The position numbers and the translations under genes were made by a program. The notes under the pieces were generated by a model, which did no database searches, was not told where the DNA came from, and was given only the letters and a program-made list of their open reading frames with translations. Shown here piece after piece: positions 1,287 to 14,769 of a stretch of DNA of 41,736 nt. The stretch's first letter is position 1, and every line of letters begins with the position of its first letter. Origin of the DNA: a virus; IMG/VR virus record IMGVR_UViG_3300043420_001028, positions 1 to 41,736 of that record; one strand, 5' to 3'.

Positions 1287-1447
1287 GGTAGGTACCTTGC
1301 CTTGAGACGGTAGAATACCTCGCCTGTCACGTATCCAGCTGTATACGTCGCAGCGACGATAGGGGCGAGGCGAAGGGCGATAGCCCTGGCGCGGCGGCCG
1401 ATTTCCTCTGCGGGAGGAATGACCAGAGTAGGCAGGACGATGATCAT
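1283..1447 (-). CDS. small hypothetical protein, possible membrane segment (54 aa)
   Basis: A good AAGGAG site precedes the ATG. The middle (LRLAPIVAATYTAGYV) is moderately hydrophobic and could associate with a membrane. The stop and the next start form an ATGA overlap, and the start overlaps the upstream gene in the same way. Confidence 0.65.
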   Translation of the reverse strand: MIIVLPTLVIPPAEEIGRRARAIALRLAPIVAATYTAGYVTGEVFYRLKARYLP

Positions 1448-1581
1448 AGGGTCTCCTTGCGGTAGAGGCGGTTGATACGGTCTCGCTGCTCTTGCTTGGC
1501 CTGTTCCTTGTAATCGATCAGGGGGCAGCGGTTGAGCTTAAGGCTTGCGAGGAAGCGCTCCCAGTATGCCAGGTAGGTCAT
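1444..1581 (-). CDS. small basic hypothetical protein (45 aa)
   Basis: A charged, probably helical protein (YKEQAKQEQRDRINRLYRK) coupled by ATGA overlaps to the lyase-like gene upstream and to the 54-aa gene downstream. No domain is recognised. Confidence 0.65.
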   Translation of the reverse strand: MTYLAYWERFLASLKLNRCPLIDYKEQAKQEQRDRINRLYRKETL

Positions 1582-2006
1582 CACATACGAAACTCCGTGT
1601 ATTGCCCCGCAAGGGCGAAGGACCCATCGGCTTTGGTGCCGAAGGTCTGACGCAGTCTATACTGGTCATTGCTGATCAGTCGAATCTCCTCCCTGTAGGT
1701 TACACCGTCGTAGGTGGTGGTGAAAACGATGGTGTCATCGTCGACCATCTCCACGTCCGAGTCGTGGGCGTCGTCGCCGAAGTAATCCCTGCTGCGCACC
1801 AGAACGTTCCCGTCCAGGGTAACCTCCATCTTGCCGCTGGTCTTGCCTTCCCAGTTGATGATGAACTGGTTACCACGTTCCCCTTCGCGGATGTCCATGA
1901 GGGTGGTGTAGTTGACGGGCTTGCCGTCAGGCTGAAAGAGGTAGCGACGCTCTGAGCGCCACTTGCCGCAGGAGCGACGGAGCCAGGTGAGAACTGCTGT
2001 ATTCAT
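1581..2006 (-). CDS. CpcS/CpeS-like phycobiliprotein lyase
   Basis: S-type lyases are lipocalin-like proteins that attach bilin chromophores to cysteines of phycobiliproteins, the cyanobacterial light-harvesting pigments. The 141-aa frame starts MNTAVLTWLRRSCGKW, matching the family's short N-terminus before its conserved S-x-GKW. It then has ERRYLF, a string of beta strands, the pair YDGVTYREEIRLIS and YRLRQT, and ends with a Phe-Arg-Met like the family's EIR[LM]. It is shorter than typical members in the middle. A longer frame from 2033 is possible, but 2006 fits the family start; neither start has a clear ribosome binding site. If correct, the host makes phycobilisomes. Generic lipocalin-like folds are the alternative. 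Confidence 0.6.
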   Translation of the reverse strand: MNTAVLTWLRRSCGKWRSERRYLFQPDGKPVNYTTLMDIREGERGNQFIINWEGKTSGKMEVTLDGNVLVRSRDYFGDDAHDSDVEMVDDDTIVFTTTYDGVTYREEIRLISNDQYRLRQTFGTKADGSFALAGQYTEFRM

Positions 2007-2253: not shown

Positions 2254-2338
2254 CGAGCTTGCTCCAGGCAATGGGTAGGAAGGTGATCAGCAGGCCCAGG
2301 GCCGTGCCGCCACCGTAGAGAAGAATGTCGTGGATCAT
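2240..2338 (-). CDS. tiny membrane protein (32 aa)
   Basis: Begins MIHDILLYGGGTALGLL and has one hydrophobic helix ending in a polar tail. It overlaps genes on both sides (ATGA with the 56-aa gene upstream). No homology is recognised. Confidence 0.55.
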   Translation of the reverse strand: MIHDILLYGGGTALGLLITFLPIAWSKLDGKH

Positions 2339-2505
2339 TGGTACTCCTGTGGTAGGTCTTCGATCAGGCCCTCGTCGAAGTTGAAGTCGCCGCAGATTTG
2401 GGCGACCATCTCGATGGCCTCGTCTCTGTCATAGGCGCCGACAAGGTACTTCTTCCCTGTGACGCGGTGAATGAAACAAAACTTGGTGGTTGTGGGTGCG
2501 GTCAT
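2335..2505 (-). CDS. hypothetical protein (56 aa)
   Basis: A soluble small protein with a basic, beta-type start (FCFIHRVTGKKYLVGAYD) and an acidic end. It is coupled by ATGA overlaps on both sides. It may adopt a small alpha-beta fold; function unknown. Confidence 0.7.
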   Translation of the reverse strand: MTAPTTTKFCFIHRVTGKKYLVGAYDRDEAIEMVAQICGDFNFDEGLIEDLPQEYQ

Positions 2506-7539: not shown

Positions 7540-9147
7540 TCACTTAGCGTTCTGAGCTGCCTTCTGAGCCTTCTCGGTCTCACTGGGAGGGGTGCGCTCA
7601 CCCTGCTTAGGTTTCTCGTCTGCGGTCCCCTGGCCTGGCTGGCTGGGGGCGACCGCCTGGAACTCCTCGGCGCGAGCTAGGTCGTTCTCGAGCTTCATGT
7701 CTGCCTCCTCCTGCTGCTGGTCCATAGCCTCCTGGCGGTCCTTTTCGGTGCGCTCCATCTCTTCCTCGACAACCAGGTCAGGATCGAGTACGCCACCGCG
7801 CTGCAGCTCATCCAGGACGGTTTTCTTGGACAACAGGCCCTGAGAGTAGAGATTGGTCAACTGAGCCATTTCGCTAGCGCCCAGAGGCTTGTTGATCAGG
7901 GAGTCGTTGATGGCCAGGCCGGATTCCTTGGTGATCTGTGCCTGCTCGCCAGCATAGAAGGCCCAGAGGCGCATCAGGACGCCGAAGGCTGCGGCCTTGT
8001 TGCGTACCAGGGCAGACACACTGGACGCAACCTGAGAAGCACGTAGGCTGGCCTCAGTAGCAGTCTTGACGTTAGCCCCATAAAGGAAGTTCAGGGAGCT
8101 GCGGTCCATCAAGGCTTCGACGTGGACGATCTCAGCCTGGTGGCGTTCGAGACTCTTGCCGGAAGGCTCGGCAAAGCTGAAATCGGAGCCGCTTTCGCCA
8201 GACAGATCGACAGCGGTGTTAGGGCCGAGGATAAGGGGAGCGGGGTTGCCGTCAGGGCCGATCGGGGCACCCTTGCGGACGGGCACCGGCATGGCGCACT
8301 TATGGAGTAGCTCGTTCAGGTCAGAGCGCATCTGGAAGTGCTGGATGCTCAGGTCAGCCAGGCCGTCCATGGGCAGGTCGCCCTGGGCGAAGCGAGTGGT
8401 GGTGGCGCCATACCACACCAGAGGGATGATTGGCAAGGTAGTGCTGATCTTGTCGATCCTCTTGTTGGCCCAGCGCTGGGCATCGGCTTTGACCACGCGG
8501 TACATCTCGACCTTGCCAGGGGTCAGGACGTAGTAGACAGGCTCAACGACAGAGCCGTATGCACCCTCGGGATTAGGGACCGAGCGAAGCATACGAACGG
8601 TCACCTGGTCAACGCTCTCGAGACCACGGCTGTAGCTGACCTTCCAGTTGATAACGTCTGCACGGGCGATGGAGATGAAGTACGGCTGGCGGCCATCGTT
8701 CATCTGGTCGAAGAAGTTGTTGTCTCCGCCACGCTCGGGCATCATGTCAACCATGATGAAGGTGCCGCCATCACGCAGCGCCATCTCGTCAATACGGGTC
8801 AGGAACGAGGTCAGGCTCGAACCCTGCAGGTCAACATTCTGCTCGGCATTTTCCAGGGAGGCCGGAGAGTCAATGAGGTGAACGCGGCTCAGTAGGCCAG
8901 CGTAGCTCTTGATGGCATCGCGGTAGATCGGCGTGTAGGTGGCGCGACCGAGGCGGGCCTTGTAGGCACTTGCGGGCTCAGCTGGCTCCCTGGGCAGATA
9001 CTTCTCCTTAGCAGCTCCCAGGCCACCTGCGTTGAGCAGGGTCCAGCAGTCGTAGGCTTGCTCCAGCTGGGGGAGCAGACGCACCAACTCGGGACGATGG
9101 TAGGAGACCAGCGAGGGGTCGTTTATCGGGTGATTGATGCCTTTCAT
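7540..9147 (-). CDS. phage portal protein (DUF4055-like)
   Basis: Portals form the dodecameric ring at the capsid vertex through which DNA is packaged and ejected. The 535-aa length is right. The N-terminal region YKARLGRATYTPIYRDAIK with a following SYAGLL, the central GGTFIMVDM strand and the long Gln/Glu-rich C-terminal helix fit the DUF4055-type phage portal proteins. The stretch NFLYGANVKTATEASLRASQ matches the portal stem and clip helical region. The gene is separated from the terminase by about 12 kb, unusual for siphoviruses. It is the first structural gene on the left side; capsid genes are not in the window. Confidence 0.75.
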   Translation of the reverse strand: MKGINHPINDPSLVSYHRPELVRLLPQLEQAYDCWTLLNAGGLGAAKEKYLPREPAEPASAYKARLGRATYTPIYRDAIKSYAGLLSRVHLIDSPASLENAEQNVDLQGSSLTSFLTRIDEMALRDGGTFIMVDMMPERGGDNNFFDQMNDGRQPYFISIARADVINWKVSYSRGLESVDQVTVRMLRSVPNPEGAYGSVVEPVYYVLTPGKVEMYRVVKADAQRWANKRIDKISTTLPIIPLVWYGATTTRFAQGDLPMDGLADLSIQHFQMRSDLNELLHKCAMPVPVRKGAPIGPDGNPAPLILGPNTAVDLSGESGSDFSFAEPSGKSLERHQAEIVHVEALMDRSSLNFLYGANVKTATEASLRASQVASSVSALVRNKAAAFGVLMRLWAFYAGEQAQITKESGLAINDSLINKPLGASEMAQLTNLYSQGLLSKKTVLDELQRGGVLDPDLVVEEEMERTEKDRQEAMDQQQEEADMKLENDLARAEEFQAVAPSQPGQGTADEKPKQGERTPPSETEKAQKAAQNAK

Positions 9148-9767: not shown

Positions 9768-9929
9768 TTAGCTCTCCTGTTGTTTGCGTAGTTTGAGGTA
9801 CTTGGTCCAGGCTGTTGAGACCTGATCGCAATCGGCCTCATTGAATGTCCTGTAGCGCTTCTCTATCTTCATCATGTAGATAGAGAACGCGGCCCTGAAG
9901 TCCTCCAGGGCCCGTTCCAGATCGGTCAT
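9768..9929 (-). CDS. small charged protein between RNR and dCTP deaminase (53 aa)
   Basis: The frame MTDLERALEDFRAAFSIYMM is helical. It is coupled to the RNR stop by an ATGA overlap and ends two bases before the dcd TTG. Function unknown; position suggests co-expression with nucleotide metabolism. Confidence 0.7.
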   Translation of the reverse strand: MTDLERALEDFRAAFSIYMMKIEKRYRTFNEADCDQVSTAWTKYLKLRKQQES

Positions 9930-12900
9930 GCCTTGCCTTCCTGCTCCTCTTTCTCTGCCTTAGCGATACAGGCAGCGTTGGCGCAGCCAGCCACCGACTC
10001 GATGGTCCACTCACTGCTGTCGAACTTCTTCAAGATGTCCAGCAGGGTGCGGTCGTCAGTCTCTGCCACGACCTGACGGGGCAGGATCTGGATGTCGTAC
10101 TCCTCCTTAGAGATGGGTTCAAACGGGAGTCTTGGAAAAGTGCCCCCGGAGACATCAAAACGAGCGAGCAGGGCTGCAGAGATGTAGCCGCCGTCGTTCT
10201 GGATGTCGTCGTAGATCAGCTTAGCGAGAACAGGGATCTCCTCTTCGCGCAGTTCGATGGTGGCTGAGCAGTTGTGGTCCACATAGTTGCGCTGCACATT
10301 CATGTACAGGCCATACTGTGCCTCCACGGGCAGCTGGTTCAAGTCGAACTCGTCGCAGCCAGGCAGATCTGCCCAGGATACGGCGGTCGGGATCTCCACC
10401 AGCACCTCATGCACACGGGGATCGGTGATGTCGTCCAGCAGGTTACCCTCATCGTCGCGGGCGCTCTGTGCAGGGATGACGTTGTAGCCATACTCAATCA
10501 GAGCGGGCACCAGGGGGTCCTTGGCGCCCAGGGTGATGCGGCGGATGAAACGCTGGGCCTTGGGCGGATGCCAGCCGCTGGAGGCGCCTGTGAGCAGGCT
10601 CTTGGTGCCAGCAGGTTGAACCGTGGTGATGCGGTTGGGGTGGCGGATGCCGTACTTGTTGCAGTAATCACGGACGCCACGATGAGCAGCCAGGCGGAAG
10701 TTGGCCAGGTACTCAGCCTCTGCGGCCTCGAAGATGCGGCCAGCGCGGTAGCCTTTGCGGCCACCCATCATCCACTTGAGCCACTCGTAGCCGAAGGCGT
10801 GGACAAAGAAGTCGAAGAGACCAGTGAAGCTGACGCCCACGATAGGATCGATCTCACGGCTGTACTGGTACCGCTCGTGTACGAACTCGTGCTGCAGGAG
10901 TGCTGCTACCTGGAGGCCAGCGGCGTAGAAGGCATCTTCCTGTGCCCCGTAGTCTTTCGGGTCGATGGTGTTCAGGTGCACCTCGGCCAGATTGCAGTGG
11001 AAGTCGCGGCCAATGATCTCCCCACAAGGATTGAGGCCGTAGCGATCCATACGGTGGCCAATCTCGCGGGCATCCAGCGAGTTGTCCAGCTTGGCCAGGT
11101 ACTTGGCCGCCTTGTCGCGTCCCTTGCTGGTGTAGATGTCCAGGAACCTAGCCTTCTTGGCTTGGGTATTCAGCAGGTCGACGTTGGCACGGGCCACCGC
11201 CTCGGGGACGTACTGGATAGCACCTTCGCCAGACTGGAACTGCAGGCGCACTGCATCCTCAACCTCCTGGTAGGAGGGCTTGGTGTGGTAGCAGCGGGTG
11301 TGATTAGCCATCCGCAGGGCCTCCTTCTTGGGGTCCACACGCCAGTTACCTTCCTCGTCCTGGCTGTACAGGCCCAGCTTGGCAGTGGCAGCTTCCTGGT
11401 CGTCCTGAGAGAACTGGCGCATGCCAGCAGAGCGGCGGATGTTGCCAGCGACGATACAAGCAGCGGCTTCGTCGATCAGCAGGCAAGCCTCGACGGTAGT
11501 CAGCTTGCGGCCCACGGCACCGTTCAACAGGTCAACGACCTTGCGGAACATGGTCTCGAGCTTGATCGGGTTGGCAGTGCCACCAAAACCCTTGAGGCGC
11601 TCGCCAGCAGGGCGCACCTGGCTCAGATCGATGGTCAGCTCGATCTCCTCTGCGCCGTTGTAGGCGGCCTGGTTGATCAGGGCCTGATAGGCATCCACCC
11701 ATCCCTTGCGGCTGTCGCCAACAGAGATCATGACATGCCCCTTCTCGGAGATCACATGAGTGACCGCGCAACCAGGGGCGTCTCCGACGGGGTTGAGGCG
11801 AACGATCTTGATCGCAGACTTGATCGGGGGCAACTGGTCCACCACGTCTTGCTCGAGCACTGCGCCAGTACCAGAGCCCTGCATGGCCAGGTCCACCAGA
11901 AGACCAAAGGCATTCAGGTCGGAGATGTGGGTCGAAGTGCAGTTGCCTGTCAGCAAACCGTGGGCAAGCACGAAGCTACGGGTTTCGGGCTCTTCGGCAC
12001 AGTAGACAGTTTCAGGAGCCTCTTCTACCCCGATGGACTTGACGGTCCACCAGCGCTTTTCAGCACCCTTGCGGAAGCTCTTGCGATGCGAGGAGCGGAG
12101 AAGGTCCTCCGCATCAACCGAATCCTTGTCCAGTACGATCGCCCACAAGTCCTGCTTGCGCTTGCCAAGGTTGGTTTTCTCGCCAGTACGGGCAGCAACA
12201 CGAGACGAGACAAATGTGAAGCCCGCTACGGCTGCGTAACTAGCCGCAAAAGAGGCGAGTTCTGCACTGCCGTAAATGACAACTGACTGTCCAACAGAGC
12301 CGTCGGTAGCAATCAATCCCTGAAAGAATCCGCGCAGATAATCAGGGTCATAGGCAGGAGGGAGCTCCTTGAGGTTTTTCTCTGAATCAACGTAGGCGCG
12401 GACGTGCTGATAATGGCGTATGTCATCAAAGTGCCGATACAGCTCTACTTTTTCCCCGACAAGGTCGACAAAGAACTTGCCGTACTGAGTGGTGCCGTCA
12501 CCATAGACGATGCCATGGCGAATGCCTTCCACACTGGCTTTGGGCTTAGGAGAGTAGACCTTGGCGATCTTGTCTCCACGGCGCAGTTCGGCTGTCGTCA
12601 CCTCACCACGACGAGTGATCCAGCGATGGTTTGGAGTGCTGCGAATCACCTGGGCAGCGCCACCCTTCTGACCGAAGGTTACGGGGATCAGGGTCTGCTC
12701 TCCGTAGCCCTTGAACTCAACATCAACCCAATGACCATTGCCATTAAGTACGGTGGTCGTACCGCTAGCAAGATCCTCGATCCTCTCCAGTCCGTAAGCG
12801 GTCTGGACAAGGGTGTCGCGATGGAGGCAGTTGTAGTAACCGCTGAAATTCTCGGGGCGCTTGCCCCATTCGGTGCCAGCCACCCAGAAGGCGCGGCCAG

Positions 12901-13102
12901 ACGGGAACGAATGCTGAGCGAGGGCCTGCTCCCTGACGAGAGCGTACTCCTCTTGGTCGAACTTGCCGATCTCAGCGATGTCGTTCACCGTCCTGAGCAT
13001 GGCTTCCTCGAAGTTCTCGCGGGTGCCGTCTTCCTTCCGACGGCTGTAGGTGCGGAGGAAGACCGTCTCTGCGCTAGGGGCTTGGGGACGGAAGTCGGAC
13101 AT
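9926..13102 (-). CDS. nrdJ: class II ribonucleotide reductase with intein
   Basis: Adenosylcobalamin-dependent RNRs reduce ribonucleotides to deoxyribonucleotides. The precursor has 1058 aa; removing the 296-aa intein leaves 762, close to monomeric class II enzymes. Seen in the sequence: NPCGEI (Cys 693), FHCNLAEV (Cys 703), PAGTKSLLTGASSGWHPP near the end of the barrel, and a C-terminal CANAAC pair (about 1040/1045), matching the thiyl-radical, active-site and swinging-arm cysteines of the Lactobacillus enzyme. The intein sits directly before CTSTHIS, the other active-site Cys. I start at ATG 13102, 47 bases after a TATACT promoter; the frame is open further upstream. The host must provide cobalamin. 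Confidence 0.95.
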   Translation of the reverse strand: MSDFRPQAPSAETVFLRTYSRRKEDGTRENFEEAMLRTVNDIAEIGKFDQEEYALVREQALAQHSFPSGRAFWVAGTEWGKRPENFSGYYNCLHRDTLVQTAYGLERIEDLASGTTTVLNGNGHWVDVEFKGYGEQTLIPVTFGQKGGAAQVIRSTPNHRWITRRGEVTTAELRRGDKIAKVYSPKPKASVEGIRHGIVYGDGTTQYGKFFVDLVGEKVELYRHFDDIRHYQHVRAYVDSEKNLKELPPAYDPDYLRGFFQGLIATDGSVGQSVVIYGSAELASFAASYAAVAGFTFVSSRVAARTGEKTNLGKRKQDLWAIVLDKDSVDAEDLLRSSHRKSFRKGAEKRWWTVKSIGVEEAPETVYCAEEPETRSFVLAHGLLTGNCTSTHISDLNAFGLLVDLAMQGSGTGAVLEQDVVDQLPPIKSAIKIVRLNPVGDAPGCAVTHVISEKGHVMISVGDSRKGWVDAYQALINQAAYNGAEEIELTIDLSQVRPAGERLKGFGGTANPIKLETMFRKVVDLLNGAVGRKLTTVEACLLIDEAAACIVAGNIRRSAGMRQFSQDDQEAATAKLGLYSQDEEGNWRVDPKKEALRMANHTRCYHTKPSYQEVEDAVRLQFQSGEGAIQYVPEAVARANVDLLNTQAKKARFLDIYTSKGRDKAAKYLAKLDNSLDAREIGHRMDRYGLNPCGEIIGRDFHCNLAEVHLNTIDPKDYGAQEDAFYAAGLQVAALLQHEFVHERYQYSREIDPIVGVSFTGLFDFFVHAFGYEWLKWMMGGRKGYRAGRIFEAAEAEYLANFRLAAHRGVRDYCNKYGIRHPNRITTVQPAGTKSLLTGASSGWHPPKAQRFIRRITLGAKDPLVPALIEYGYNVIPAQSARDDEGNLLDDITDPRVHEVLVEIPTAVSWADLPGCDEFDLNQLPVEAQYGLYMNVQRNYVDHNCSATIELREEEIPVLAKLIYDDIQNDGGYISAALLARFDVSGGTFPRLPFEPISKEEYDIQILPRQVVAETDDRTLLDILKKFDSSEWTIESVAGCANAACIAKAEKEEQEGKA
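11942..12829 (-). mobile_element. LAGLIDADG intein in the RNR gene
   Basis: An in-frame 296-aa insertion between SGYYN and CTSTHIS. It begins with Cys (CLHRDTLVQT), has the block B TPNH motif (about 65-68) and ends ...HGLLTGN before the +1 Cys. The usual penultimate His is Gly here. Two LAGLIDADG-type motifs, HGIVYGDGT (Asp 111) and FFQGLIATDGS (Asp 176), keep their acidic residues, so the homing endonuclease looks intact. Splicing would restore the catalytic-pair Cys as the first residue of the C-extein. An inteinless allele would be the homing target. Confidence 0.92.
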
Positions 13103-13148
13103 ATCTGGTGTTTGGTGACGCAGGAGTAGAATACCTGTCGTCCTAACC

Positions 13149-13154
13149 AGTATA
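13149..13154 (-). promoter_or_regulatory. extended -10-type promoter TATACTGG before nrdJ
   Basis: Minus-strand context GCTGTATACTGGTTAGG, four bases after the T-run of the preceding terminator. The region where a -35 would lie is the terminator stem itself, so it must act without one. Confidence 0.65.
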
Positions 13155-13157
13155 CAG

Positions 13158-13183
13158 CAAAAGAGGGGACCGAAGCCCCCTCT
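13158..13183 (-). terminator. Rho-independent terminator
   Basis: AGAGGGG, 8-base loop, CCCCTCT and a short T-run on the minus strand, after the stop at 13215. Immediately followed by the nrdJ promoter. Confidence 0.85.
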
Positions 13184-13214
13184 CGTTACAATCCGAAAAC
13201 TGATCAGACTCGCT

Positions 13215-13580
13215 TTAATCATCAGTCAGCGCAGCCAGCGCCGCTTCAAGGTGCGGGATTGCAGCAGCAGCAGTGGAGCGGCTGCGGGCACGGTTGCTGA
13301 TTTGAATAGCAAGCTGATACGCGCGTTCCTGGTCTTGCTTGATCTGCCGCCTGCGCTCTACTTCCGCGAGTTGATCAGGCGTAGCGGGAACGATCCAGCA
13401 GTAATCCCAGCTGCCGTATCCGATCTCTTGCCAATCGCTGATTCGGAACCGGCGCGGGCCAACGATGATTCGCGTCTTGGTGAGGCGGTCAACAGTTGCG
13501 ATTCGGTCGGGGATGTACGGCGTGGAATACCGCAATATCACCGTATCGCCGGGCTTGAGGTCAGAGAGTGATGTGGTCAT
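13215..13580 (-). CDS. hypothetical protein with small beta-barrel N-terminus (121 aa)
   Basis: The N-terminal part (LKPGDTVILRYS, then RIATVDRLTKTRIIVG and RRFRISDWQEIG) looks like a KOW/SH3-type barrel. The rest is a helical, Ala-rich tail. I use the ATG at 13580; a TTG at 13589 is also in frame. It ends at the terminator in front of nrdJ. Function unknown. Confidence 0.7.
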   Translation of the reverse strand: MTTSLSDLKPGDTVILRYSTPYIPDRIATVDRLTKTRIIVGPRRFRISDWQEIGYGSWDYCWIVPATPDQLAEVERRRQIKQDQERAYQLAIQISNRARSRSTAAAAIPHLEAALAALTDD

Positions 13581-13975: not shown

Positions 13976-14160
13976 CATTGCGCGACGGTTGCGTTGGGCA
14001 GCCGATGATAATCAACGTCGCAAACCCTATCGAAATAGCGGTTAGCAGAGTACTCGTCAACGGCGTGCACGGTGGCTTTGAGCACGAAGGAGCCGTCGCC
14101 CACCGTGTAGAAGACCGAGAAGGGCTTGCCGCGCTTGCGGCCAAAGAGGAACTTAAACAT
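13975..14160 (-). CDS. small hypothetical protein (61 aa)
   Basis: Begins MFKFLFGRKRGKPFSVFY, with a basic patch and beta strands after it. It overlaps the gene upstream. No family is recognised. Confidence 0.6.
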   Translation of the reverse strand: MFKFLFGRKRGKPFSVFYTVGDGSFVLKATVHAVDEYSANRYFDRVCDVDYHRLPNATVAQ

Positions 14161-14311
14161 CGAAGATTTTAGACTCGGAGGCGGACGGGTTAGCTTCCAC
14201 GTACTTGCGGAAGGCTTTGGTGGACTGGTCCTCCTTGCACTTGCATTTCGGACATTTTTTCTCGCAGGCCATAAGGTTCAGGCGGTAGAGGTTCGAGTAG
14301 GTCGGAAGCAT
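14153..14311 (-). CDS. small Cys-rich protein (52 aa)
   Basis: The ATG at 14311 shares one base with the HNH stop. The centre CEKKCPKCKCKED has four cysteines in a short span and could bind zinc. Function unknown. Confidence 0.6.
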   Translation of the reverse strand: MLPTYSNLYRLNLMACEKKCPKCKCKEDQSTKAFRKYVEANPSASESKIFDV

Positions 14312-14769
14312 CAACGACCCTTTTTGATCTGAGAGATGCGCTCCGTTGTTACACCGTAACGTTCGGCGAGGAGCTTGTTCGGCTCGGTGGAGCATTTAAT
14401 CAGCTCCCTGTCGTCCAAGGATACCTTTCTCTTGAGGTTTGCGCGTCCCCTCCTAAAACGATCCTCCATGTTCTGCTTTTGGGTCCCGAGATAGAGGTGT
14501 GCGGGATTAAAGCAGATCGGATTATCGCAGTGGTGGTTGACTTGCATCCCCTCAGGTATCGGCTCTGCGTGGTGGGCCTCCCAGGCCATGCGGTGGACCA
14601 TCATTCTCGACTTATCATCAAGCCTGATGCGAGTGTGCCCAGCGATGCTGGTGGAGCCGTGATACTCCCAGCACTCATCGTCCGCGTCGCCAACAGCCTT
14701 GGTCCAGAGTCGTTCCAGAACATTGACGCTGGCCATGCGGCCGTTCTGGAGTCTTTTGTAGTGGATCAT
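14311..14769 (-). CDS. HNH homing endonuclease (152 aa)
   Basis: The core MVHRMAWEAHHAEPIPEGMQ, VNHHCDNPICFNPAHL and YLGTQKQNMED is the classic HNH_3 arrangement of free-standing phage homing endonucleases, with catalytic His in NHHCDN. The C-terminus (ERYGVTTERISQIKKGR) is a helix-turn-helix for target binding. Such genes cut DNA at inteinless/intronless-type sites near their own locus. It lies among small genes with no split partner visible. Confidence 0.9.
   Translation of the reverse strand: MIHYKRLQNGRMASVNVLERLWTKAVGDADDECWEYHGSTSIAGHTRIRLDDKSRMMVHRMAWEAHHAEPIPEGMQVNHHCDNPICFNPAHLYLGTQKQNMEDRFRRGRANLKRKVSLDDRELIKCSTEPNKLLAERYGVTTERISQIKKGR

Follow-up and report, generated by a model that had tools for sequence, protein, structure and literature searches.

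The window, a virus record of 41,736 bases, encodes a protein that almost certainly belongs to the S-type phycobiliprotein lyase superfamily. Pfam, tblastn, an AlphaFold2 model and a tree together describe this 141-aa product as a lyase-like lipocalin barrel of the CpeS superfamily, within the phage 'cpcV' clade. The gene lies on the minus strand (2006..1581), with an ATG start and a TGA stop; an alternative in-frame ATG at 2033 would yield a protein of 150 aa. The first-pass annotation had based its S-type assignment on several motifs, and all of them (RSCGKW, EEIRLIS, RLRQT and a C-terminal FRM) were found in the 141-aa ORF. Given the 15 Synechococcus phage records that match it, which exceed chance, the gene is confirmed as real.

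The Pfam CpeS model (PF09367) scored 41.2 bits on the protein (cut-off 23.3), over residues 65-141 only, the N-terminal half being uncovered. CpeS was the sole Pfam family above its cut-off. A DUF1579 match to residues 7-42 stayed sub-threshold (21.3 bits vs 25.2), and no Pfam CpeT match, which would indicate a T-type lyase, was listed at E<=1; the profile comparison of CpcS/CpeS with CpeT proposed in the first pass thus came out for CpeS. A tblastn search returned 17 phage records, consisting of 15 Synechococcus phages and two marginal Stenotrophomonas phage matches (E 0.9). The Synechococcus phage matches covered at least 93% of the protein with E values of 3e-17 to 2e-51, the best being those of S-CRES1-3 at 57% identity, and fifteen IMG/VR loci carried relatives that were 39-58% identical. 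At E<=1, PF09367 was matched by 7/7 phage rows. In the PDB, a profile built from seven phage proteins matched the Guillardia phycoerythrin lyase CPES (4tq2, E 2.8e-4) and, weakly, 3bdr (E 0.18). The window protein alone retrieved just Pur-alpha from the PDB by phmmer (E 0.62-0.69), had no match in NCBIfam and gave a single weak PHROGs match of unknown function (E 0.084). A related-locus search with this single protein found nothing. A scan of genome contigs with the phage alignment was negative too; it used short back-translated patterns and missed families later found by profile.

The AlphaFold2 model was built from an alignment of 15 rows (A2, which omits L016, whose protein equals that of L015) and predicted an N-terminal helix and ten strands with a pLDDT of 95.3 and a pTM of 0.86. 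Foldseek ranked 4tq2 first for this model (E 2.9e-7). When VIA was run on Foldseek's top 1000, the top two structures were 3bdr (Z 16.9, rmsd 1.8, 127 aligned) and 4tq2 (Z 16.1, rmsd 2.9, 132 aligned), followed by spirocyclases and a DUF3598 protein (Z 14.2-14.6) and nitrobindins (Z about 13), with other barrels at Z 11-15. No T-type lyase structure was among the 50 VIA matches listed, an absence that excludes nothing. A viral fold search (BFVD, E<=0.001) gave four rows, all unannotated giant-virus barrels (best 1.5e-5), and was not informative. The predicted fold is therefore a confident lipocalin-like barrel whose nearest solved structures are those of the S-type lyases, 4tq2 and 3bdr. No unrelated lipocalin family, the alternative named in the first pass, matched better, CpeS being the only Pfam pass and S-type lyases the top folds. 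Sequence profile and fold agree on the S-type lyase superfamily; a shared fold by itself shows no function.

Conserved residues further supported S-type membership. G14, W16, R20, W52, E106, R119 and E138 were identical in 76/76 rows drawn from five groups, the window protein included, and R117 was kept in all rows but one phage row. Since the seven columns fixed across the 76 rows are all retained, loss of the putative bilin-binding pocket was not seen at the sequence level. The window protein lacks approximately 25-35 residues that canonical and GQYLEKR proteins carry between strands 2 and 3, and this stretch is just as short in the other phage rows.

The gene is carried by a cyanophage of the S-CRES/S-CBS2 type, a placement based on gene order and terminase identity. 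The terminase, portal, primase, ribonucleotide reductase and many small genes of the window are collinear with those of the Synechococcus phage S-CRES3, which agrees with the cyanophage origin assumed in the first pass, and the large terminase shares 88-90% identity with its S-CRES3 and S-CBS2 counterparts. S-CBS2 itself gave no lyase match at E<=1 by tblastn.

The first-pass annotation had also placed the gene in a coupled operon of small genes, and this held on the downstream side only. The lyase stop overlaps the ATG of a minus-strand ORF of 46 aa (1444..1581, MTYLAYWERFLASLKLNRCPL...; TGATG, 1583..1579), whose homologue, gp56 of S-CRES3 (58.5%), lies directly behind the lyase gene of that phage. 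Upstream, just ORFs of at most 39 aa were listed between the lyase start and a minus-strand ORF of 56 aa (2335..2505), which has a conserved counterpart (66% over 50 aa) within the corresponding block of small genes in S-CRES3. Among 50,697 phage records, homologues of the 46-aa ORF occurred in three phages only, S-CRES3, S-CREM2 and S-B68. All three are lyase carriers; the homologue adjoins the lyase gene in S-CRES3 and lies elsewhere in S-CREM2 and S-B68. A Pfam scan of 20 window ORFs revealed no other bilin gene, an Rfam search gave 0 matches and no tRNAs were found in the window.

Phage S-type lyases named cpcV have been published from the cyanomyoviruses S-CREM2, S-H34, S-N03, S-B68 and S-CBWM1 (PMC10665884), and the nearest isolates, S-CRES1-3 (GenBank OQ587939-41), carry an annotated 'S-type phycobiliprotein lyase'. 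Because of this published group and these annotations, the window gene extends no known set, contrary to the expectation of the first pass that it would enlarge the phage pigment-gene repertoire; it is of an ordinary kind and adds one member to that group of phage S-type lyase-like genes. The window protein falls in the same clade as these phage proteins, shares their invariant residues and is approximately 38-58% identical to them over its full length. It differs from them in sequence divergence only, and its phage is of the S-CRES/S-CBS2 type and not T4-like. The window and IMG/VR contigs with shared neighbouring genes (e.g. L010-L014 and L017) add further S-type lyase-like cases in cyanophages of this type. 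No open paper on the S-CRES phages was found. The annotated lyase starts at 8079 in S-CRES1 (L002:7986-8429) and 3079 in S-CRES2 (L009:2986-3429) cut off the conserved GSWKSERR start, and both ORFs stay open upstream of these positions, to an ATG. CpeT, the T-type lyase for which the window protein gave no Pfam match, is likewise a phage lyase gene; it was present in 31/153 cyanophage genomes, all of them myoviruses, and was the sole phage lyase counted in the accessible part of that survey (PMC10452541).

The position of the phage proteins within the superfamily was assessed with a tree of 76 rows: 20 phage rows, 16 canonical CpcS/CpcU/CpeS/CpeU-like rows, 5 short picocyanobacterial rows, 19 rows of a cyanobacterial class ending in RTRQT...GQYLEKR and 16 rows of a picocyanobacterial family with the pattern RRWF...HHEIR. 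Subfamily names of cellular rows other than CpcU are labels of our own. CpcU is recognised by the motifs SAGKWFS, PNLR and SEIR (PMC6273044). The canonical and short picocyanobacterial rows split from the phage, GQYLEKR and WF...HHEIR rows at 100/100, the phage and WF...HHEIR rows formed one group at 100/98, and the window protein belonged to a nine-row phage clade with S-CRES1 and S-CRES3 at 100/99. The tree carries a long-branch warning, the WF...HHEIR stem measuring 3.0 changes per column. The AU test rejected a grouping of the phage with the canonical rows (p-AU 0.024) and one of the phage with the GQYLEKR rows against the rest (p-AU 0.024); it did not reject the 20 phage rows as a single clade (p-AU 0.52). 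Nesting of the WF...HHEIR family inside the phage rows is unsafe, as the single phage clade fits equally well.

Tree-free profile scores agreed with this arrangement. The 20 phage rows scored 8-36 bits against the canonical profile and 43-74 and 44-84 bits against the two non-canonical families; the window protein scored 25 bits (canonical), 60 (GQYLEKR) and 70 (WF...HHEIR). Profile-profile comparison with the phage proteins gave 99.65% for GQYLEKR (136 columns), 99.44% for WF...HHEIR (140 columns) and 97.97% for the canonical lyases. In both trees and profiles, then, the phage proteins lie outside the CpcS/CpcU/CpeS/CpeU branch of established lyase activity, and their nearest cellular relatives are the GQYLEKR class and the WF...HHEIR family. 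The short SEIRR-ending picocyanobacterial proteins (L114, L120, L127-L129) were considered as host cpcV and source of the phage gene and were set aside; they group with the canonical lyases, and the phage rows scored 0-15 bits against their profile.

With the canonical CpcS/CpcU/CpeS/CpeU proteins (PF09367; 3bdr, 4tq2) the window protein shares the fold, the seven invariant residues, a G.W.S.R start, an E...R.R core and an E.R end. It differs in standing on a separate branch, in having 25-35 fewer residues between strands 2 and 3, and in lacking the WF and SEIRR motifs. The GQYLEKR class shares with the phage protein the RQT plus GQYxExR signature and an RRY start, but has the strand 2/3 segment that the window protein lacks. 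The WF...HHEIR family shares the RRWF..N.G.WRS.R.YF start and the RL..QD.(Y/F)R.R core, but ends in HHEIR where the phage protein has GQYxExR, and shows an FF..KP insert and a long stem.

Of 200 genomes sampled from the order that contains Synechococcus RCC307, 178 were matched by the phage profile, as were 76 of 116 genomes of the wider class; the sampled genomes may be incomplete, which bears on all of the distribution counts. In 59 wider-class genomes the WF...HHEIR profile scored 237-275 bits in four small genomes and 22-35 bits in five others, with no match in 50; the five weak matches all fell at places matched by the phage profile among larger genomes. Among 11 named genomes, scores of 223-282 bits were obtained in Synechococcus RCC307, BSA11S, HJ21-Hayes and GFB01, Cyanobium CH-040 and Prochlorococcus MIT 9201; in Prochlorococcus SCGC AAA795-F05 the match, at the end of a contig, scored 159 bits. 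The profile was unmatched in the other four (Prochlorococcus SCGC AAA795-I06, the single-cell-type assembly AG-439-B13, a Pleurocapsales and a Symploca). The family (RCC307, L191:5552-6109; loci L132-L161) was thus observed in nearly all sampled picocyanobacteria. Across 61 picocyanobacterial genomes the GQYLEKR profile reached at most 73.9 bits, and all three of its RCC307 matches were canonical loci. The two distributions therefore look complementary, which makes WF...HHEIR a possible counterpart, in picocyanobacteria, of the GQYLEKR class, itself possibly the cellular CpcV. We know of no name for the WF...HHEIR family. Its members fell below the Pfam CpeS cut-off (16-18 bits vs 23.3, three tested) and had no NCBIfam match (two tested), and its profile retrieved just one unrelated chain from the PDB (E 0.12).

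Our preferred reading, which we hold tentatively, is that the window protein binds a bilin in its barrel and, in the course of infection, passes it on to a phycobiliprotein. A linear bilin, phycocyanobilin or phycoerythrobilin, would bind reversibly in the cup of the barrel, in contact with the conserved Arg and Glu; the bilin would be delivered to a phycobiliprotein cysteine, and the antenna proteins would be kept chromophorylated while the phage replicates. Bilin binding is the probable part of this scheme; true cysteine-ligase activity is putative and somewhat more doubtful than the scheme as a whole. The effect on phycobilisome maturation suggested in the first pass is likewise putative. 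The Nostoc S-type lyase CpcS1 offers a precedent, binding phycocyanobilin in approximately 0.1 s and transferring it slowly to apoproteins (PMC2327270). This precedent, the PF09367 score, the 4tq2 and 3bdr matches, the residues invariant in 76 rows and the cyanophage context were counted in favour of a bilin carrier or lyase. Counted against it were the low canonical-profile scores, the p-AU of 0.024, the missing 25-35 residues, the CpcV precedent (in the part of a 2008 review accessible to us, its role in attachment is described as unresolved; PMC2327270) and the lack of another bilin gene among the 20 window ORFs scanned. Both the absent strand 2/3 segment and the position on a divergent branch suggest a protein whose partner or site specificity differs from that of CpcS or CpeS. 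The literature searched, which was mostly open-access, yielded no assay of any phage S-type protein, and the 'lyase' label for the phage branch rests on the superfamily match.

Ranked second, and somewhat unlikely, is a scavenging or turnover role, in which the protein binds bilins freed from dismantled phycobilisomes or holds them for degradation, without ligation. It gains from the grouping of the phage proteins away from lyases of proven activity and from the same review, which reports two S-type homologues without lyase activity and suggests turnover, since one of them is expressed under nitrogen starvation (PMC2327270). It also gains from gene content, since seven of the eight isolate records that carry the lyase have no psbA/psbD match (S-CBWM1 is the sole one with a match), which would put the lyase outside the usual photosynthesis-sustaining set. 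The window had no psbA/psbD match in a search in which the positive control P-SSP7 matched, and two of eight IMG/VR records with the lyase, which may be fragments, had one. The Pfam CpeS search of the same 18 records gave 15 positives, with P-SSP7 negative; the model missed S-B68 and S-N03, although both carry the lyase gene. Against scavenging, no phycobilisome-degradation gene was recognised beside the lyase (ORF P0002 had no Pfam match at E<=0.1), and the residues fixed in the active branch are all retained.

Third, and unlikely, the protein could resemble the WF...HHEIR family in its action, its ligand being some other tetrapyrrole or a hydrophobic compound unconnected with phycobilisomes. 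Prochlorococcus lacks phycobilisomes and has almost no phycobiliproteins, and the WF...HHEIR match in Prochlorococcus MIT 9201 (235.9 bits, E 1.8e-70) means that some cellular kin of the phage branch occur where phycobilisomes do not; the one Pfam CpeS match in that genome lies at another place. The grouping of the two families, their profile-profile match and the spread of phage-profile matches through the RCC307 order point the same way. In RCC307 the WF...HHEIR gene is not beside phycobilisome genes and adjoins ORFs that we take, from reading them, to be aminopeptidase-N-like and histidine-kinase-like. The long WF...HHEIR stem may however have pulled the position of the family, it is with the GQYLEKR class that the phage rows have RQT and GQYxExR in common, and the single phage clade without WF...HHEIR was not rejected. 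An unrelated nitrobindin, FABP or DUF1579-like barrel, resembling a lyase by fold only, is very improbable, for the sub-threshold DUF1579 match and the Z scores of other barrels are outweighed by CpeS as the only Pfam family past its cut-off and by S-type lyases as the nearest structures in both VIA and Foldseek.

A broader proposal, which we consider unlikely, is that phage cpcV products are not phycobilisome lyases and form with WF...HHEIR a distinct S-type-derived barrel lineage, kept near-universally by picocyanobacteria, among them Prochlorococcus, for a non-antenna purpose, whose function the phages would take over with a trimmed version. The link to WF...HHEIR supplies a relative in cells of phage cpcV, which a 2023 study was unable to group with a host gene, and raises the testable question of what an S-type barrel does in cells with almost no phycobiliproteins.

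Three other loci drew attention. A small minus-strand ORF at 14153-14395 is similar both to a protein annotated as CP12 in S-CRES3 and to a hypothetical S-CBS2 protein; it was considered as a CP12 gene and not accepted, its Pfam score of 15.9 bits being below the cut-off of 22.7. In S-CBWM1 (L004, MG450654.1) the psbA/psbD-type match at 111309-112992 is in two pieces approximately 780 bases apart, as if interrupted. The ribonucleotide reductase ORF of the window (9926-13222, minus strand) is 1098 aa long, compared with 765 aa in S-CRES3, and contains sub-threshold intein/Hint matches; it likely holds an intein.
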